Assembly (NCBI RefSeq): GCF_037081775.1 | Contig: NZ_JBAMHQ010000001.1 | Location: forward strand, 248,001 to 312,000 | Direction of reading: 5' to 3' | DNA from: Haladaptatus sp. ZSTT2 | Lineage (GTDB): Archaea > Halobacteriota > Halobacteria > Halobacteriales > Halococcaceae | Length of the DNA stretch: 64,000 bases | Part shown: in pieces, positions 45,092-53,340 of the stretch | Layout of the letters: each line of letters opens with the position of its first letter | How positions within the stretch are numbered: position 1 is the stretch's first letter | Notes under the pieces: generated by a model | What the model saw: only the letters and a program-made list of their open reading frames with translations | Told to the model about the DNA's origin: nothing | Database searches by the model: none | Made by a program: the position numbers and the translations under genes

Positions 45092-46336
45092 TTGGTTGCG
45101 ATACAATGTCTCACCGACATACCGAGGAAACGTCGTCTCAGACGGCGGGTCGAGTTCTTCGAGGGCACGCTAACTAACACCACTGCCCCCGAGATTGACA
45201 CGGTACGGATTTTCGACACCACGCTCCGCGATGGGGAGCAGACACCACGCACGTCGTTCTCGTATGAAGACAAACGCGAGATAGCGGCGGCGTTGGACGA
45301 CATGGGAACCCACGTCATCGAGGCTGGCTTCCCGGTCAACTCGGACGCCGAGTTCGAGGCCGTCCGCGACATCGCAGAGAGCACGCACACCACGACGTGT
45401 GGACTGGCGAGGGTCGTCGACAAAGATATCGAGGCTGCACTGGACGCGGGCGTGGAGATGATTCACGTCTTCGCGAGCACCAGTGACATTCAGCTCGAAG
45501 ACTCCATGCACGCCACTCGCGCGGAGGCAAAACAGCGCTCCGTCGAAGCAGTCAGGCGCGCAAAGGAGGCAGGCGTCACGGTGATGTACTCACCGATGGA
45601 CGCGACGCGAACGAACCACGACTTCCTCATCGATGTCGTGGAAGCCGTGAGCGACGCGGGAACCGACTGGATTAACATCCCCGACACCTGCGGGGTGGCG
45701 ACGCCCACGCGGATGGCCAAACTGGTCTCCGACGTGGTCGCACACACGGACGCCTACGTGGACGTCCACGCCCACGACGACTTCGGGCTGGCGACGGCGA
45801 ACGCCATCGCCGGGTTCGAAGCCGGGGCTCACCAGGCACAGGTGTCAGTAAACGGCATCGGCGAACGCGCCGGGAACGCCGCTTACGAAGAGGTCGTGAT
45901 GGCCGCAGAGAGTCTGTTCGGCGTCGATACCGGCATCGACACCACGCAGATAATGAAAATCGCGAAAATCGTCGAGGAGTGCAGCGACGTGCCGATTCCG
46001 GCGAACAAACCCGTCGTGGGCAAGAACGCCTTCGCCCACGAGAGCGGAATTCACGCCGCGGGCGTCATCGAGAACGCCTCCACGTTCGAGCCGGGCGTCA
46101 TGACGCCAGAGATGGTCGGTGCAACCCGTGAACTGGTCATGGGCAAGCACACGGGCACTCACTCCGTGAGAAAGCGCCTGCAGGACGAAGGGTTCGACCC
46201 AACCGAAGAGCAGGTGCGCGCAGTGACGCGGAAGGTAAAGGACTTCGGCGCGGACAAACAGCAGGTCACCGACGACGTGCTCGCGCGCTTTGCCAAAGAG
46301 GTCGGCGTCAAAGAGAAGTCGGAGGTCAAAGCCTGA
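45092..46336 (+). CDS. leuA: 2-isopropylmalate/citramalate synthase family enzyme, without regulatory domain
   Basis: The open frame encodes 414 residues. The DRE-TIM catalytic domain has IDTVRIFDTTLRDGEQTP and the metal ligands in DVHAHDDFG; two linker subdomains follow. The C-terminal LeuA-dimer domain that binds feedback inhibitor is absent. The enzyme condenses acetyl-CoA with a 2-oxoacid for leucine or isoleucine synthesis, as upstream partner of ilvBNC-leuCDB. The start is a problem: only TTG 45092 lies in frame before the core, yet the TATA box points to ATG 45106 in another frame. A frameshift at 45143-45150 would join them. Confidence 0.85.
   Translation: MVAIQCLTDIPRKRRLRRRVEFFEGTLTNTTAPEIDTVRIFDTTLRDGEQTPRTSFSYEDKREIAAALDDMGTHVIEAGFPVNSDAEFEAVRDIAESTHTTTCGLARVVDKDIEAALDAGVEMIHVFASTSDIQLEDSMHATRAEAKQRSVEAVRRAKEAGVTVMYSPMDATRTNHDFLIDVVEAVSDAGTDWINIPDTCGVATPTRMAKLVSDVVAHTDAYVDVHAHDDFGLATANAIAGFEAGAHQAQVSVNGIGERAGNAAYEEVVMAAESLFGVDTGIDTTQIMKIAKIVEECSDVPIPANKPVVGKNAFAHESGIHAAGVIENASTFEPGVMTPEMVGATRELVMGKHTGTHSVRKRLQDEGFDPTEEQVRAVTRKVKDFGADKQQVTDDVLARFAKEVGVKEKSEVKA
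45106..45177 (+). CDS. 23-residue ORF overlapping the leuA start (leader or frameshifted N-terminus)
   Basis: The first ATG after the TATA box opens a short frame that ends at TAA 45175-45177, out of frame with leuA. It begins MSHRHTEETSSQTAG. It contains one Leu and one Val only, so a branched-chain attenuation role is not supported. Removing one G in the GGCGGG near 45143 would fuse it in frame to VEFFEGTL of leuA, giving a normal leaderless start. It is therefore either the true N-terminus split by a frameshift, or an upstream ORF. Confidence 0.45.
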   Translation: MSHRHTEETSSQTAGRVLRGHAN

Positions 46337-46418
46337 ATTATGACTTCCGGCGTTTTTGCTCGTGACGAGCCTTGCGTGAACGATGCTCGAATGAGCAAGG
46401 TTTGCACGACGCACAACA

Positions 46419-46428
46419 GTTATAATGG
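46419..46428 (+). promoter_or_regulatory. TATA box of the ilv leader
   Basis: GTTATAATGG carries TATAAT at 46421-46426, 26-31 bases before ATG 46452. A leaderless transcript starting at or just before this ATG is expected. The element lies about 80 bases after the leuA stop, so ilvBNC-leuCDB has its own promoter. Confidence 0.65.
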
Positions 46429-46451
46429 GCGCGTCACATACCCGTCTACTA

Positions 46452-46529
46452 ATGCAGACACTCGCCGCTCACACGCAGTCGCAGGCGACGAGCGGTGCTG
46501 CGGCTCAGCTCATTATTGTAGGGGTCTAG
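46452..46529 (+). CDS. ilv leader peptide (25 residues), putative attenuator peptide
   Basis: The ORF starts ATG CAG ACA CTC and ends CAG CTC ATT ATT GTA GGG GTC TAG, so the peptide finishes QLIIVGV: five of the last six residues before the stop are Leu, Ile, Ile, Val and Val. The Ile and first Val codons (ATT, ATT, GTA) are uncommon in this G+C-rich genome. The ORF is placed like a leaderless gene behind its TATA box. Its final codons overlap the 5' arm of a hairpin. ilvB begins 127 bases after its stop. The arrangement matches classical ilv leader peptides of bacteria; function is inferred. Confidence 0.7.
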   Translation: MQTLAAHTQSQATSGAAAQLIIVGV

Positions 46530-46562
46530 CTCCCCTACCTACCCCCATCTCCACCGATTTTT
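46518..46562 (+). terminator. Hairpin and T-run in the ilv leader, putative attenuator
   Basis: GTAGGGG (46518-46524) and CCCCTAC (46532-46538) are perfectly complementary with a 7-base loop that contains the leader stop codon. C-rich sequence follows and then five T (46558-46562). A ribosome held at the two Ile codons (46512-46517) would cover the 5' arm. The rest of the 46337-46656 gap shows no other gene. Confidence 0.6.
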
Positions 46563-46644
46563 GCACTGACCTCAAAGCCACAGCACTTGCGCAAGCACAC
46601 CCTGCGACCACGACCAAACCGATGACCAACCGACCCACACCAAC

Positions 46645-46649
46645 GGAGG
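46645..46649 (+). promoter_or_regulatory. Shine-Dalgarno of ilvB
   Basis: GGAGG stands 7 bases before ATG 46657. Leaderless haloarchaeal genes lack such sites, so it indicates that ilvB is read from a transcript with a 5' UTR, consistent with the leader promoter at 46419. Confidence 0.65.
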
Positions 46650-46656
46650 CCCGAAC

Positions 46657-48417
46657 ATGAGCGAACGGGCGACCTCCACCTACCCAGATTCGACCGAGGA
46701 ATCGACCGACGAGAAACCCACACGCCGCCCCGTGACCAACGGCGCACAGTCCGTCGTTCGCGCGCTCGAAAACGCGGGCGTCAAACACCTGTTCGGCGTC
46801 CAAGGCGGGGCAATCATGCCCGTCTACGACGCGCTCTACGATTCAGAGATGACGCACGTCACGATGGCCCACGAGCAGTCTGCATCCCACGCCGCAGACG
46901 CCTACGGCATCGTGTCTGGTTCACCGGGTGTGTGTCTCGCCACTTCTGGACCGGGCGCGACGAACCTCGTGACCGGCATCGCAGACGCGAACATGGACTC
47001 AGATCCCATGATTGCGCTGACGGGACAGGTTCCGTCGGACATGGTCGGTTCTGATGCGTTCCAAGAAACCGACACCACGGGCGTTACCGCACCAATCACC
47101 AAGGCGAACTACTTCGCCTCTGACACGGACACCGTCGGCGACGTGGTGGGCGAAGCGTTCGCCATGGCCGCGAGTGGCCGACAAGGGCCGACGCTCGTCG
47201 ACCTGCCAAAGGACATCACCAATGCGCCGACCGACCGCGAGCCGGGGCCGGGGCGCACGCCATCGACCTACAACCCGCGGACAGATCCCGACCCCGAAGA
47301 GGTGTCTGCGGCCGCGAGCGCACTCGCGGGCGCGAAAAAGCCCGTCATCCTCGCCGGTGGCGGCGTCATCAAGGCAAACGCGACCGAGCAACTGAGCGAG
47401 TTCGCAATCGAACACGAAATCCCCGTCGTCACGACGATGCCTGCCGTTGGCGCGTTCCCCGAAGACCACCCACTCTCGATGGAGATGGCTGGCATGCACG
47501 GGACGGGCTACGCGAACATGGCCATCACGCACTGTGACGTGATGCTGGCCGTTGGCACGCGATTTGACGACCGGCTGACCGGTGGTATCGACACGTTCGC
47601 CCCGGAAGCCGAAATCATCCACATCGACATCGACCCGGCAGAGGTTTCGAAGAACATCTACGCCGACTATCCGGTCATCGGGGATGCGGGAACGGCGCTC
47701 ACGCGCCTGTACGACGCGATGGCGAACGAGCCGGATGCAGACGACTGGCGCGAACAGTGCCAGACGTGGAAAGACGAATACCCGATGGACTACCAGACGC
47801 CCGAAGACGAACCGCTCAAACCGCAGTTCGTCGTCGAGGCGTTCGACGCCGTGACTGACGACGACACCATCATCACCACGGGCGTTGGCCAACACCAGAT
47901 GTGGGCCGTCCAGTACTGGACGTTCAAACAGCCACGGACGTGGGTGTCTTCCCACGGTCTCGGAACGATGGGCTACGGCCTGCCCGCCGCCATCGGCGCG
48001 CGACTGGCCGCCCGCGACGACCAGACCATCATCAGCTTCGAAGGAGACGGGTCGTTCCTGATGACCCTCCAGGAGCTGTCGGTGGCCGTCCGTGACCACA
48101 TGGACATCACCGTCGCCGTCCTCAACAACAAGTACATCGGCATGGTTCGCCAGTGGCAGGACGCCTTCTTCGAAGGCCGCCACTCGGCGTCCGAGTACGG
48201 CTGGTGCCCCGAGTTCGACAAGCTCGCAGAAGCCTTCGGCGCGAAGGGCTTCCGCGTCGATGAGTACGACGAGGTCGCAGACACCATCGAGGCCGCGCTG
48301 GCCTACGACGGCCCGTCGGTCATCGACTTCCACATCGACCCCGCTGCGAACGTCTATCCGATGGTCGCAAGCGGCGCAGCAAACGGCCGGTTCGCGCTCT
48401 CGGAGGACCAACTATGA
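46657..48417 (+). CDS. ilvB: Acetolactate synthase, catalytic subunit
   Basis: This encodes 586 residues with the three domains of a ThDP enzyme: N-terminal Pyr domain (about 25-190) with the catalytic Glu in HEQSASHAADAYG, central FAD/Rossmann domain (about 210-350), and PP domain (about 385-560) with the ThDP-Mg motif GDGSFLMTLQEL...NNKYIGM. It makes 2-acetolactate and 2-aceto-2-hydroxybutyrate. It is the first structural gene behind the leader and overlaps ilvN by ATGA. Confidence 0.95.
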   Translation: MSERATSTYPDSTEESTDEKPTRRPVTNGAQSVVRALENAGVKHLFGVQGGAIMPVYDALYDSEMTHVTMAHEQSASHAADAYGIVSGSPGVCLATSGPGATNLVTGIADANMDSDPMIALTGQVPSDMVGSDAFQETDTTGVTAPITKANYFASDTDTVGDVVGEAFAMAASGRQGPTLVDLPKDITNAPTDREPGPGRTPSTYNPRTDPDPEEVSAAASALAGAKKPVILAGGGVIKANATEQLSEFAIEHEIPVVTTMPAVGAFPEDHPLSMEMAGMHGTGYANMAITHCDVMLAVGTRFDDRLTGGIDTFAPEAEIIHIDIDPAEVSKNIYADYPVIGDAGTALTRLYDAMANEPDADDWREQCQTWKDEYPMDYQTPEDEPLKPQFVVEAFDAVTDDDTIITTGVGQHQMWAVQYWTFKQPRTWVSSHGLGTMGYGLPAAIGARLAARDDQTIISFEGDGSFLMTLQELSVAVRDHMDITVAVLNNKYIGMVRQWQDAFFEGRHSASEYGWCPEFDKLAEAFGAKGFRVDEYDEVADTIEAALAYDGPSVIDFHIDPAANVYPMVASGAANGRFALSEDQL

Positions 48418-49076
48418 CGCAAGGACTGCAAGGCCCCCGCCCAGAGGAGCGTCCCCACCCAGAGGGACGACGCAACGCACAGGGCGAACGTATCGACCCG
48501 GTTCAAGAAGCAAAACAGGAGACCCGACAGGCCACCGTTTCAGCGCTCGTCAAACACGAACCGGGCGTGCTGTCGCTCGTTTCCGGGCTGTTCAGCCGCC
48601 GCCAGTTCAACATTGAGAGTTTGACCGTTGGGCCGACGACGGTTGACGGCCACGCGCGCATCACGCTGGTTGTCGAGGAAACTGACGCGGGTATCGACCA
48701 AATCAAAAAACAGCTGGCGAAGTTGAAACCCTCCATCGCGGTTGGCGAACTCGGCACGGACGCCGTTCGCGCGGAACTGGTCTTGCTCAAGGTGCAGGGC
48801 CACGAGCCGGACAAGGTTCACGCCATCACGCAGATGTACGAGGGGCAGACGCTCGACGCCGGGCCGCGAACCATCACGGTGCAAATCACGGGTGACCAGC
48901 GGAAAATCGACGACGCCGTCGATGCGTTCCGCCAGTTCGGCATCATCGAAATCGCCCGGACGGGCCAGACCGCACTCGCGCGCGGCGACACGCCGACGAC
49001 GCCGGGTGAATCACCCGCTGCGTCAGCAGAGAGTACCGCTTCAGAAACGCAAAACAGTTCCAATACACAGCAATGA
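48414..49076 (+). CDS. ilvN: Acetolactate synthase, regulatory subunit
   Basis: This encodes 220 residues. After a polar N-terminus of about 35 residues the ACT domain ([29 protein letters not shown]) and the C-terminal IlvN domain ([23 protein letters not shown]) follow. A Ser/Thr-rich acidic tail of about 35 residues is a haloarchaeal addition. It gives valine feedback to IlvB. It overlaps both neighbours by 4 bases. Confidence 0.92.
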
Positions 49077-50122
49077 CAGACGAATTTACCACAACCGTAT
49101 ATTACGACGACGACGCAGACGACGCACAGCTCGCAAACAAGACGGTAGCCGTCCTCGGCTACGGCAGTCAGGGCCACGCCCACGCACAGAACCTCGCAGA
49201 CAGCGGCGTTGACGTGGTCGTTGGCCTCCGCGAGGAGTCCGCATCTCGACAGGCCGCAGAGGCAGATGGACTGCGCGTGCGAAATCCAGTGCAGGCCGCA
49301 AAAGAGGCAGACATCGTCTCCGTGCTCGTCCCGGACACCGTCCAGCCAGCCGTCTACGAACAAATCAAAGACGAACTCGAACCGGGTAACACGCTCCAGT
49401 TCGCCCACGGGTTCAACATCCACTACAGCCAAATCGAGCCAAGCGAAGGCATCGATGTGACGCTCGTCGCGCCGAAGAGTCCGGGCCACCTCGTCCGCCG
49501 CAACTACGAGGCCGGACAGGGCACGCCGGGACTCGTCGCTGTCCACCAGGACAGCACGGGCGAGGCAAAAGAAGAGGCACTCGCCTACGCCAAGGCAATC
49601 GGCTGTACGCGCGCCGGGGTCATTGAGACCACCTTCCGCGAGGAGACAGAAACCGACCTGTTCGGCGAGCAGGCGGTCCTCTGTGGCGGCGTCACGAGCC
49701 TCGTCAAGCAGGGCTACGAAACGCTCGTTGACGCGGGCTACAGCCCGGAGATGGCCTACTTCGAGTGCTTGAACGAACTCAAGCTCATCGTCGATCTGAT
49801 GTACGAAGACGGCCTCGGCGGCATGTGGGATTCGGTCTCCGACACCGCAGAGTTCGGCGGACTCACCCGCGGCGACGAAATCGTTGACGAACACGCCCGC
49901 GAGCGCATGGAAGACGTTTTAGAGCGCGTCCAGAACGGTACCTTCGCCCGCGAATGGATTGTCGAGAATCAGGCTGGTCGCCCGAGCTACAACCAACTGC
50001 GTGACGCAGAGAAGAACCACGAAATCGAGCACGTTGGCGCACGCCTGCGCGACCTGTTCGCGTGGAGCGGCGAAGAGCAAGAGGACACAAGCGAGAAGAA
50101 ACGGGTGAAAACCGATGCCTGA
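49073..50122 (+). CDS. ilvC: Ketol-acid reductoisomerase
   Basis: This encodes 349 residues of the class I type. The Rossmann motif is [17 protein letters not shown], and the knotted C-terminal domain has the metal ligands in [23 protein letters not shown] and the downstream Glu residues ([18 protein letters not shown]). It isomerises and reduces acetolactate to the dihydroxyacid. The C-terminal 25 residues are acidic and probably disordered. The start overlaps ilvN (ATGA). Confidence 0.95.
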
Positions 50123-50345
50123 AAAGGGCACGATGAAAGACGTGAGCCACACGAACCCCTACACGGGTGAGGCCTTTGGTGACAGCGTCGTGTATCGACG
50201 CGGCGTCGTCATCACCGACGGCGGCCACGATCCTGAACGGGAAGGCGAGGCAGATACGATGGAAGACGTAGACCACGAGCCACCGAACGGCGACGGGGCA
50301 AACCCCGTCTTCGAGCGCGGCCCAGACGTAGAAGACGATGAGTAA
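50115..50345 (+). CDS. Small acidic protein in the BCAA operon, function unknown
   Basis: This encodes 76 residues, overlapping ilvC by 8 bases and leuC by 8 bases, so translation is coupled on both sides. It has a conserved-looking head ([20 protein letters not shown]) and an acidic, probably disordered tail. No enzyme motif, membrane part or zinc site is seen. Its fixed place between ilvC and leuC suggests a role in the pathway, maybe as a partner of one of them. Confidence 0.6.
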
Positions 50346-51759
50346 CGGAACGCTGTACGACAAGGTGTGGGACCGGCACAAAGTCACGACGCTCCCGAAC
50401 GGCCAAGACCAGCTGTTCGTGGGCCTCCACCTCATCCACGAGGTGACGAGTCCGCAGGCGTTCGGGATGCTCCGCGAGCGCGACCTCGAAGTCGCCTATC
50501 CGGAACGTACCTACGCGACAGTTGACCACATCATTCCGACTGCAGACCAGTCGCGGCCCTACGCCGACGACGCCGCAGAGGAGATGATGAGCGAACTTGA
50601 GGAGAACGTCCGCGAGGCCGGTATCCAGTTCGCAGACACGTCCACGGGCAATCAGGGAATTGTCCACGTTATCGGACCAGAGCAGGGCATCACCCAACCC
50701 GGTATGACCATTGTGTGTGGCGACAGTCACACCTCGACACACGGTGCATTCGGCGCACTCGCCTTTGGGATTGGCACCTCGCAAATCCGCGACGTGCTCG
50801 CCACCCAGACCGTGGCGATGGAGAAAAAGAAGGTGCGGAAAATCGAGGTCACCGGCGAACTCGGTAACAGCGTCACGGCCAAAGACGTCATCCTGACCAT
50901 CATCAGCAAACTCGGCACCGATGGCGGCGTCGGCTACGTCTACGAGTACGCGGGTGAGGCCATCGAGAGCCTCGACATGGAAGGGCGGATGAGCATCTGC
51001 AACATGTCCATCGAGGGCGGTGCGCGTGCGGGCTACGTGAACCCGGACGAAACTACCTACGAGTACCTGCGCGAGACGGACGCCTTCGCGGACGACCCAG
51101 AGAAATTCGAGCGGATGAAGACGTACTGGGAGTCCATCACGTCCGACGACGACGCCGAGTACGACGACGTGGTGACCATCGACGGCTCCGAAATCGAGCC
51201 GACCGTGACGTGGGGAACCACACCCGGACAAGGCATTGGCATCAAACAGCCGGTGCCCGCCCCCGACGACCTGCCTGCCGACAAGCAGGACACAGCACGC
51301 ATGTCGCAAGAACACATGCGCGTCGAACCCGGCAAGACGATGGAGGGCTACAAAATCGACGTGGCCTTCCTCGGTAGCTGTACCAACGCCCGACTGCCAG
51401 ACCTGCGTGCGGCGGCGGCCATCGCCAAAGGGCGGCAAGTTCACCAGGACGTTCGCGCAATGGTCGTCCCCGGTAGCCAGCGCGTGAAAGCCGCGGCCGA
51501 AGCAGAAGGCCTCGACAAAATCTTCACCGAGGCTGGTTTCGAATGGCGACAGGCTGGCTGTTCGATGTGTCTTGGCATGAACGACGACCAGCTGCAGGGC
51601 GACGAAGCCTCTGCCTCCTCGTCGAACCGCAACTTTATCGGCCGACAGGGGAGCAAAGACGGGCGCACCGTCCTGATGAGCCCCGAGATGGTCGTGGCAG
51701 CGGCGGTGACCGGCGAGGTCACTGACGTTCGCGAACTGAAGGAGGTGGCCCACGTATGA
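50338..51759 (+). CDS. leuC: 3-isopropylmalate dehydratase, large subunit
   Basis: This encodes 473 residues of the aconitase fold. [21 protein letters not shown] is the typical active-site stretch, and the 4Fe-4S ligands are in GSCTNARL and CSMCLGMN. With LeuD it isomerises 2- to 3-isopropylmalate, and possibly citramalate to 3-methylmalate in the isoleucine route. It overlaps leuD by ATGA. Confidence 0.93.
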
Positions 51760-52367
51760 CCGACGTACCGAGCGTCACCAACGCTTCCGGGACGGGCATT
51801 CCCATCCGCGGAAACGATATCGACACAGACCAGATCATTCCGGCGCGATTCATGAAGGTCGTCACCTTCGAAGGGCTTGGCGAGTTCGCCTTTTTCGATA
51901 AGCGCTTTGACGAAGACGACAACGAGAAAGACCACCCGTTCAACGAAGCGCAGTATCAGGATGCCTCAATTCTCGTCGTGAACAGCAACTTCGGCTGTGG
52001 CTCCTCGCGCGAACACGCCCCACAGGCGCTCATGCGCTGGGGCATCGACGCCATCATCGGCGAATCCTTCGCAGAGATTTTCGCGGGCAACTGCCTCGCA
52101 CTCGGCATCCCGACGCTGACCGCAGACCACGACACCGTCTCCGAAATCCAAGACTGGGTCGAAGCGAACCCAGACGAGGAACTCGACGTTGACGTGGCCG
52201 CAGAAACCGTGACCTACGGCGGCAAGACCGTCTCCGTCACCGTAGACGATGCCCAGCGTCGGGCGCTCGTCGAAGGCGAGTGGGACACCACGGCGCTGCT
52301 CAAGTCGAACGCCAAAGCCGTCGCAGAAACCGCAAACGCCCTGCCGTACATGGAAAGCGATGACTGA
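51756..52367 (+). CDS. leuD: 3-isopropylmalate dehydratase, small subunit
   Basis: This encodes 203 residues of the swivel domain with [12 protein letters not shown] near the N-terminus and the conserved [17 protein letters not shown] loop. It completes the LeuCD heterodimer. Its 3' end overlaps the leuB start by 8 bases. Confidence 0.93.
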
Positions 52368-53340
52368 ACAGATTGCCGTGATTCCGGGCGACGGAATCGG
52401 CCAGGAAGTCACACCCGCTGCCGTAGAGGTACTCGCCGCGCTTGACCTCGGCTTTGAGTTCGTCTCCGGCGACGCTGGTGACGCAGTCAAAGAAGAAACT
52501 GGCGAGGCGCTGCCACAAGCCACGCGCGATCTCGTCTCAGCCTCGGACGCGACACTGTTCGGTGCGGCGGGTGAGACGGCCGCGGACGTGATTCTCCCGC
52601 TTCGCAAACAGGTGGAGTCATTCGCAAACGTCCGCCCGGCGACGGCCTACCCCGGCGTCGATGCGCTCAAACCGGACACCGACCTCGTGTTCATCCGCGA
52701 GAACACGGAGGGCGTCTACAAGGGCATCGAATCGGAGATTGCCCCCGGCGTGACGACGCTCACCCGCGTCATCACCGAAGAGGCCTCGCGCAACATCGCA
52801 GAGTTCGGCTTCGACTACGCAGCACAGAACGGCTACGACACGGTCACCATCGCCCACAAGGCGAACGTGATGCGCACGACCGACGGCCTGTTTTTAGAAA
52901 CGGCACAACAGGTCGGCGACGAACGCGGCGTGGACTACGACACGGCGCTCATGGACGCGCTGGCGATGCACCTCATCCTCCGGCCGGAGGAGTATGGCGT
53001 CGTCATCTGCCCGAACCTCGCAGGGGATATGCTTTCTGACCTGTCTGCCGGACTCGTGGGCGGCCTCGGCCTCTTGCCGAGCGCCAACGTCGGTCACGAC
53101 AACGCGCTGTTCGAGCCGGTTCACGGGAGCGCCCCGGACATCGCAGGCCAAGGAATCGCCAACCCGACGGCGACGATTCTCTCTGGCGCGATGTTGCTCG
53201 ACCACCTCGACCACGGCGAAGAAGCCGGACGGGTTCGCAGTGCCGTCGAATCGGTGCTCGAATCCGGCCCGCACACGCCTGACTTAGGCGGCGAAGCGAG
53301 CACGGAGGACGTAACGGCGGCAATCGTAGAACGCCTGTAA
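52360..53340 (+). CDS. leuB: 3-isopropylmalate dehydrogenase
   Basis: This encodes 326 residues from ATG 52360, which gives the family start [16 protein letters not shown]; the frame upstream overlaps leuD and is not used. [12 protein letters not shown], the Lys in IAHKANVM and the NAD-site region [13 protein letters not shown] are typical of the decarboxylating dehydrogenases. It oxidises 3-isopropylmalate (or 3-methylmalate) to the 2-oxoacid. It is the last gene of the operon. Confidence 0.92.

Follow-up and report, generated by a model that had tools for sequence, protein, structure and literature searches.

A conserved leader open reading frame and hairpin upstream of ilvB in Halobacteriales suggest attenuator-like control of branched-chain amino acid genes

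In bacteria, the control of biosynthetic operons by leader peptides is textbook knowledge, and ilv operons use such peptides for ribosome-mediated attenuation. In the classical ilv/leu attenuators (ilvGMEDA, ivbL-ilvBN and the leu leaders) a short peptide with codons for the pathway products is followed directly by a hairpin, and the locus described here has the same arrangement in front of ilvB. The Corynebacterium ilvB-II motif likewise contains a conserved upstream ORF (uORF) with branched-chain amino acid (BCAA) codons ahead of ilvBNC, and has been proposed to act by transcription attenuation, with reporter tests (PMC10272879). For archaea, the open-access full-text literature gave no described case of leader-peptide control, in line with a first-pass annotation of this DNA that knew of no haloarchaeal example, although a subscription-only report could be missed. 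The same literature gave no prior report of the ilvB leader or of ORFX, the frame that overlaps it.

The window (the whole 64,000-nucleotide stretch of Haladaptatus sp. ZSTT2 DNA that was analysed) carries a BCAA gene cluster in which the leader lies between leuA (stop 46334-46336) and ilvB (ATG 46657). By their ORF coordinates the genes from ilvN to leuB span 48414..53340 on the + strand, each beginning inside the end of the one before; the starts of ilvB and leuA were assigned by rule. The genes behind the leader are:

46657..48417, + strand: ilvB, the first structural gene after the leader
48414-49076, + strand: ilvN, start overlapping the preceding stop
49073-50122, + strand: ilvC, start overlapping the preceding stop
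50115-50345, + strand: orf76, between ilvC and leuC, overlapping both neighbours and made of two similar halves
50338-51759, + strand: leuC, start overlapping the preceding stop
51756-52367, + strand: leuD, start overlapping the preceding stop
about 52360 (inferred start) to 53340, + strand: leuB, start overlapping the preceding stop

The region between leuA and ilvB contains the following elements:

46340..46660, + strand: ORFX, in the frame of uORF1 minus 1; its ATG lies 3 nt past the leuA stop and the frame stays open as far as the ilvB ATG
46419..46425, + strand: GTTATAA, the TATA element of the internal ilvB promoter, with the uORF1 ATG 33 nt downstream
46452..46529, + strand: uORF1, leader peptide MQTLAAHTQSQATSGAAAQLIIVGV, predicted to be leaderless, recognised by its in-frame ATG, coding signature and C-terminus
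46465..46495, + strand: P0, a tentative upstream hairpin within uORF1 (CCGCTC/GAGCGG), proposed from own versus swapped energies
46512..46520, + strand: control codons ATT ATT GTA (Ile Ile Val), of which GTA and the next codon, GGG, are invariant across Halobacteriales
46518..46538, + strand: hairpin P2, GTAGGGG/CCCCTAC, with the uORF1 stop TAG (46527-46529) in its loop
46530..46656, + strand: spacer from the leader stop to ilvB, C-rich and G-poor by pooled composition at 86 loci
46622..46660, + strand: uORF2, MTNRPTPTEART, an internal ATG in the ORFX frame whose stop overlaps the ilvB ATG (ATGA)

The elements recognised in the first-pass annotation (TATA box, 25-residue ORF, ATT ATT codons, 7-bp hairpin, T-run, Shine-Dalgarno sequence and ilvB) were all confirmed in place. 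In the window uORF1 runs from its ATG at 46452 through 25 codons, ending in LIIVGV, to the TAG at 46527-46529, with ATT ATT at 46512-46517, and the arms of P2 (46518-46524 and 46532-46538) form a perfect 7-bp helix. The spacer holds a T5 run at 46558-46562 and GGAGG at 46645-46649; pooled over the 86 loci its base composition is A25 C40 G21.5 T13. ATT was correctly described as an uncommon codon, making up 14% of Ile codons in the ilv operon of the window, and GTA makes up 3.4% of Val codons. Perfect 7-bp hairpins with a loop of 3-9 nt are expected 0.18 times per 200 nt in the window, and the fold of the whole leader has a z of -1.3, so a leader seen in one genome could be due to chance. Since such a hairpin is not rare by itself, the case for the leader rests on comparison.

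With ilvB as the sole bait, 110 loci were collected from relatives and named genomes. A frame encoding Ile-Val-Gly-(Ala/Val) shortly before its stop was present no more than 400 nt upstream of ilvB at 83 of the 88 ilvB-ascertained loci. All 83 use the codons GTA GGG, in a search that permitted any third base, and at these loci the stop of the motif frame abuts or sits within a GGGG...CCCC hairpin. The five non-matching loci comprise one cut by a contig end (L103), one that is truncated (L018) and three in which the motif lies just beyond the search (L013, L014 and L096). Scanned as a DNA pattern, the site occurs in 18/18 genomes of the family, once in each apart from an extra chance site in one genome, and in 211/295 genomes of the order, usually once, with reversed-pattern controls near zero. 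The order genomes lacking the exact pattern mostly have ATC in place of ATT. Matches were obtained in 22/25 Halobacteriales compared with 14/123 in the rest of the phylum, where they are scattered and look like chance, and the leader appears restricted to Halobacteriales. uORF1 precedes essentially every haloarchaeal ilvB checked (more than 100 species), being degenerate in one genus. These loci are phylogenetically related, so the counts are not independent events, and the claim of invariance rests on the ilvB-only set and the non-matching genomes, as the 114-locus alignment used below was gathered with GTAGGGG in the pattern. Conservation of the leader is far stronger than a single window could reveal: the comparison proposed in the first-pass annotation was carried out and found the ORF and hairpin upstream of ilvB throughout Halobacteriales, and the lack of conservation that would have spoken against its reading was not seen.

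Two variations were observed beside this pattern. The degenerate leader (L177 and L178, from one genus) ends in SIRVRAAMAH or SIRVRAAPAH and lacks IVG, with the GTA codon and a GGGCC/GGCCC hairpin kept. A semi-conserved element, CGCACCGTTTTCAGAGCGACCAGC, lies 40-60 nt past the hairpin in Natrialbaceae and Haloferax, and weaker forms occur elsewhere.

uORF1 resembles a translated ORF. At 96/96 non-redundant loci an in-frame ATG precedes the motif with the frame open between them, at a distance that ranges from 54 to 147 nt and changes only in steps of three. The sequence xTTAT occurs 33 or 36 nt before this ATG at 79 of the 96 loci, and when ATGs at either distance after xTTAT were counted in any frame, 82/82 were in the motif frame. 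The TATA spacing puts the transcription start on the uORF1 ATG or only a few bases from it, and the mRNA is predicted to be leaderless; 72% of the protein-coding transcripts of Hfx. volcanii are of this kind (PMC4983044). Purine frequencies at codon positions 1-3 of the uORF1 body are 0.61/0.40/0.44 (p=2.5e-47), and this coding signature together with the fixed promoter spacing leads us to predict that uORF1 is translated. Conservation is confined to the C-terminal IVG(A/V), with a weak S-x-A also shared; the rest of the peptide is not conserved between families, so the constraint falls on the last few codons. The Ile control codon is present at 112/114 loci (ATT 82, ATC 30) with the Val codon GTA next, and the stop follows 4 or 5 codons past the Ile codon at 105/114. 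Ile and Val codons are few, one of each being nearly or fully invariant. Among family relatives, no leaderless uORF of this kind was found before trpC or ilvD, and one of the 17 hisG loci had a leaderless uORF, unrelated to the ilvB type. Searches of the leader gave no credible match among 4227 Rfam families and nothing in Pfam.

The GGGG/CCCC core of P2 is essentially invariant over the 114 loci, and the next inner pair is C-G in 83, T-A in 8, T-G in 8 and G-C in 1. On an alignment of the 114 leaders RNAalifold predicted the four GGGG/CCCC pairs and no others, and gave them no covariation term, as these pairs hardly vary. The outer arms are absent from 36/114 loci. GTA is paired in less than half of the loci, yet it is never changed, so pairing is not its sole role, and it may be a sequence recognised by a protein or RNA rather than a codon. 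The hairpin P0 was favoured in own over swapped windows by -1.8 kcal/mol (p=3e-5) and by -2.6 against the reversed control. In a window-by-window coevolution scan of the leader, uORF2 and the ilvB start, only this hairpin inside uORF1 clearly stood out, the next lowest p being 0.009 among 177 window pairs.

The first-pass annotation read the locus as ribosome-mediated attenuation, with a T-run as one of its elements. The conserved leader, the Ile/Val codons beside a conserved hairpin and the separate promoter agree with this reading. The T-run does not, being unconserved (T5 at only 5/114 loci), and an intrinsic hairpin-plus-T-run terminator was discarded, as the hairpin is found at all loci and T5 at so few. 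A long-range helix (P1) that would pair the end of uORF1 with a region 30-95 nt downstream, suggested by single-sequence folds, was likewise dropped after comparison of own with swapped duplexes (p=0.75), and no other long-range pairing that could serve as a mutually exclusive antiterminator was clearly better than swapped controls. A textbook ilv attenuator is thus half present, with the leader peptide and control codons but not the intrinsic terminator and antiterminator; as there is neither a conserved T-run nor an alternative helix in these alignments, the classical switch is missing.

The leader is overlapped by ORFX, which crosses the promoter, uORF1 and the hairpin and ends in a stop overlapping the ilvB ATG. 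This frame and the out-of-frame start of leuA described below, both of which take comparison to recognise, are absent from the first-pass annotation. This frame is open at 111/111 loci with no in-frame stop, compared with 288 and 415 stops in the other two frames, and dinucleotide shuffles leave it open at 11.9 of the 111. Inside the 96 uORF1s there are 0 stops in the ORFX frame against 37.6 expected, with a minimum of 22 in 200 codon shuffles, by which a composition effect was rejected as the source of the missing stops. In nearly all loci ORFX begins at an ATG that overlaps the leuA stop or comes immediately after it, and the ORFX stop falls at the ilvB ATGA overlap in 69/86. No codon periodicity was detected in ORFX upstream of the promoter (p = 0.71); within the spacer its third codon positions are weakly enriched in purines, a pattern that does not indicate coding. 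These features suggest that ORFX is selected for openness and not for a product; kept open over more than 100 species in this way, it would be an unusual kind of conserved ORF. In Hfx. volcanii, coupling of neighbouring genes by termination-reinitiation needs overlap, and reinitiation is lost over distances longer than about 20 nt (PMC10666635); coupling of leuA to ilvB would therefore require a frame that spans the region between them. Both junctions of ORFX are overlaps or spacings within about 20 nt, and we propose ORFX as a ribosome bridge from leuA to ilvB. The first ATG in the spacer is in the ORFX frame at 80 of the 87 loci that have one, and the stop of the resulting uORF2 lies at the ilvB ATGA overlap in 68/79. 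uORF2 was considered as an independent coupled uORF, and frame analysis turned it into the tail of ORFX, in which an internal ATG is nevertheless kept.

Two genomes have the leader a second time, close to a ferritin-like gene and with neither leuA nor ilvB beside it (L135, - strand, about 1250-1650, and L138, 1390-1780). In both the TATA element, uORF1 and hairpin are intact and the ORFX frame has stops inside uORF1. The constraints on uORF1 and ORFX are therefore separable, and openness of ORFX accompanies the presence of leuA. Downstream of these copies is a gene similar to that for the small protein lying between ilvC and leuC in the main cluster, so the stand-alone copy probably controls a member of the same gene set. 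A third match, a candidate stand-alone copy, was noted at G171:C2:1392286.

The neighbouring leuA has an anomalous start, with the following features in the window:

45106..45177, + strand: leaderless ATG-frame ORF at the leuA 5' end, MSHRHTEETSSQTAGRVLRGHAN, out of frame with leuA
45157-45159: rare Leu codon CTT in this ORF
overlap stretch carrying the CTT: GGTCGAGTTCTTC

The leaderless leuA ATG is in a frame from which a +1 shift is needed to reach LeuA at 74/74 distinct loci, and 62 of these have no ATG in the LeuA frame. In the window the LeuA frame has no ATG, GTG, TTG or CTG from the leaderless ATG at 45106 to the IFDTTL sequence (45209). The overlap contains an invariant TCGAGTTCTTC, read in the ATG frame as CGA GTT CTT. 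Production of LeuA looks frameshift-dependent on this evidence, and leuA is a candidate for +1 recoding. The start of the corresponding Hfx. volcanii gene, leuA2 (HVO_1510), has been described as a problem by Pfeiffer and Dyall-Smith, who weighed initiation at an in-frame CTG against initiation at an out-of-frame ATG followed by slippage and speculated on control by leucine (PMC8305020).

We consider it likely that the region upstream of ilvB is a translation-sensing, attenuator-like leader that tunes ilvBNC-leuCDB to the supply of Ile and Val, with the hairpin that follows normal termination as the OFF state. Transcription-translation coupling has been reported in haloarchaea (PMC8576121). 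The internal promoter would give an mRNA whose 5' end coincides with the uORF1 ATG or lies no more than a few bases away, and ribosomes would load on it immediately. With charged Ile- and Val-tRNA plentiful, ATY-GTA-GGG-GYN would be read, and the ribosome would terminate at the stop in the hairpin and leave; the hairpin could then form and expression of ilvB from the internal promoter would be low. Under a shortage of Ile or Val the ribosome would halt on the Ile or the rare Val codon, 4-5 codons before the stop, and its footprint over the GTAGGGG arm would prevent the hairpin, hide the site and allow the operon to be expressed. The OFF step would most likely be premature 3'-end formation, with the archaeal factor FttA/aCPSF1 acting on the C-rich spacer where it is left untranslated, coupling of FttA/aCPSF1 activity to loss of translation having been proposed as a hypothesis (PMC11616081), and next in preference a block on translation start at uORF2. 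Stalling would at the same time break the link between ribosome and polymerase, which leaves the sign of a factor-dependent OFF step uncertain. On read-through mRNA from leuA, we infer that ORFX would carry ribosomes across the leader to ilvB and bypass the sensor.

Control at translation alone is a rather unlikely alternative, in which the hairpin, or the spacer left empty after release, prevents initiation at uORF2 so that coupling does not reach ilvB. The single frame of the uORF2 ATG (80/87), the overlap of its stop with the ilvB ATG (68/79) and the dependence of Hfx. volcanii coupling on overlap, lost at about 20 nt (PMC10666635), fit this alternative, but no support was obtained for base pairing between the leader and the start region of either uORF2 or ilvB, and uORF2 is also explained as the tail of ORFX. 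We regard as improbable an arrest by the nascent peptide, with the C-terminal IVG(A/V) halting the ribosome at the stop and sensing free Ile, Val or Leu as TnaC does tryptophan. Preservation of IVG(A/V) as amino acids while the Ile codon varies synonymously (ATT 82, ATC 30), and a stop within 4-5 codons at most loci, would suit such an arrest; the peptide upstream is not conserved between families, and the action of a peptide alone would not call for the codon-level invariance of GTA and GGG. TnaC-type leaders have conserved residues upstream of the stall site, where the haloarchaeal leaders share only IVG(A/V) and a weak S-x-A.

The near-invariance of the sequence, including GTA where it is unpaired, and its inverted-repeat form could also indicate that the palindrome GTAGGGG...CCCCTAC is a DNA operator, for example of an Lrp-type regulator, with the ORF incidental. 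There is a slim chance of this, given a distance from the uORF1 ATG that changes between 54 and 147 nt only in steps of three, the coding signature of uORF1, the absence of the outer arms at 36/114 loci and the presence of one site per genome. Slimmer still is the chance of a programmed -1 frameshift at GTAGGGGC, by which ribosomes would pass from uORF1 into the ORFX frame and on to ilvB. In most loci the -1 frame of uORF1, which is ORFX, has no stop between the motif and the ilvB ATG (its end coincides with ATGA in 69/86), and the adjacent leuA looks frameshift-dependent, but GGGG favours a +1 rather than a -1 slip, openness of ORFX upstream of uORF1 is explained by coupling to leuA, and the frame is not kept in the stand-alone copies. 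These copies, with ORFX-frame stops and an intact uORF1, also contradict the notion that the uORF1/hairpin pattern is a by-product of coding constraint on ORFX; openness of ORFX at every locus would fit it, its lack of codon periodicity upstream of the promoter (p=0.71) would not, and we give it hardly any credence.

The control codons match the pathway, with Ile and Val in the ilvB leader and Leu (CTT) in the leuA leader. It is possible, and we put it forward tentatively, that the BCAA cluster is run wholly by ribosome behaviour. LeuA would be produced solely through a +1 frameshift at the hungry Leu codon, ilvB would be controlled via its own promoter and Ile/Val leader, and ORFX would carry ribosomes across the leader; on read-through mRNA this would silence the sensor and link the leucine signal with that of isoleucine/valine. 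A conserved, genetically tractable case in essentially all haloarchaea would test the regulatory use of transcription-translation coupling in archaea, and leuA, if the frameshift is true, would offer an archaeal candidate for cellular +1 recoding that is linked to the supply of amino acids.

Compared with the bacterial ilv/leu attenuators, described here from general knowledge, the archaeal leader is predicted to be leaderless, has one invariant Ile and one invariant Val codon, shows no antiterminator alternative or conserved T-run, and is overlapped by a second open frame. From the Corynebacterium ilvB-II motif (PMC10272879) it differs in belonging to another domain of life and in sequence and structure. 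As in TnaC and Rho-dependent leaders, a ribosome stalled late in the leader ORF could cover the site of a termination factor, with C-rich RNA following, but the haloarchaeal peptide is not conserved upstream and the putative factor is FttA rather than Rho. At the leuA-ORFX and ORFX-ilvB junctions the neighbouring frames overlap or lie very close together, as required for termination-reinitiation in Haloferax volcanii (PMC6728339, PMC10666635); unlike the coupled genes of that species, ORFX extends over a promoter and a leader and apparently is not selected for a protein product. The HVO_1510 start anomaly concerns the same gene and neighbourhood as the leuA of this cluster (PMC8305020). The main text of that report does not describe the ilvB leader or ORFX, and the comparison made here adds an out-of-frame ATG at 74/74 loci and the fixed TCGAGTTCTTC.
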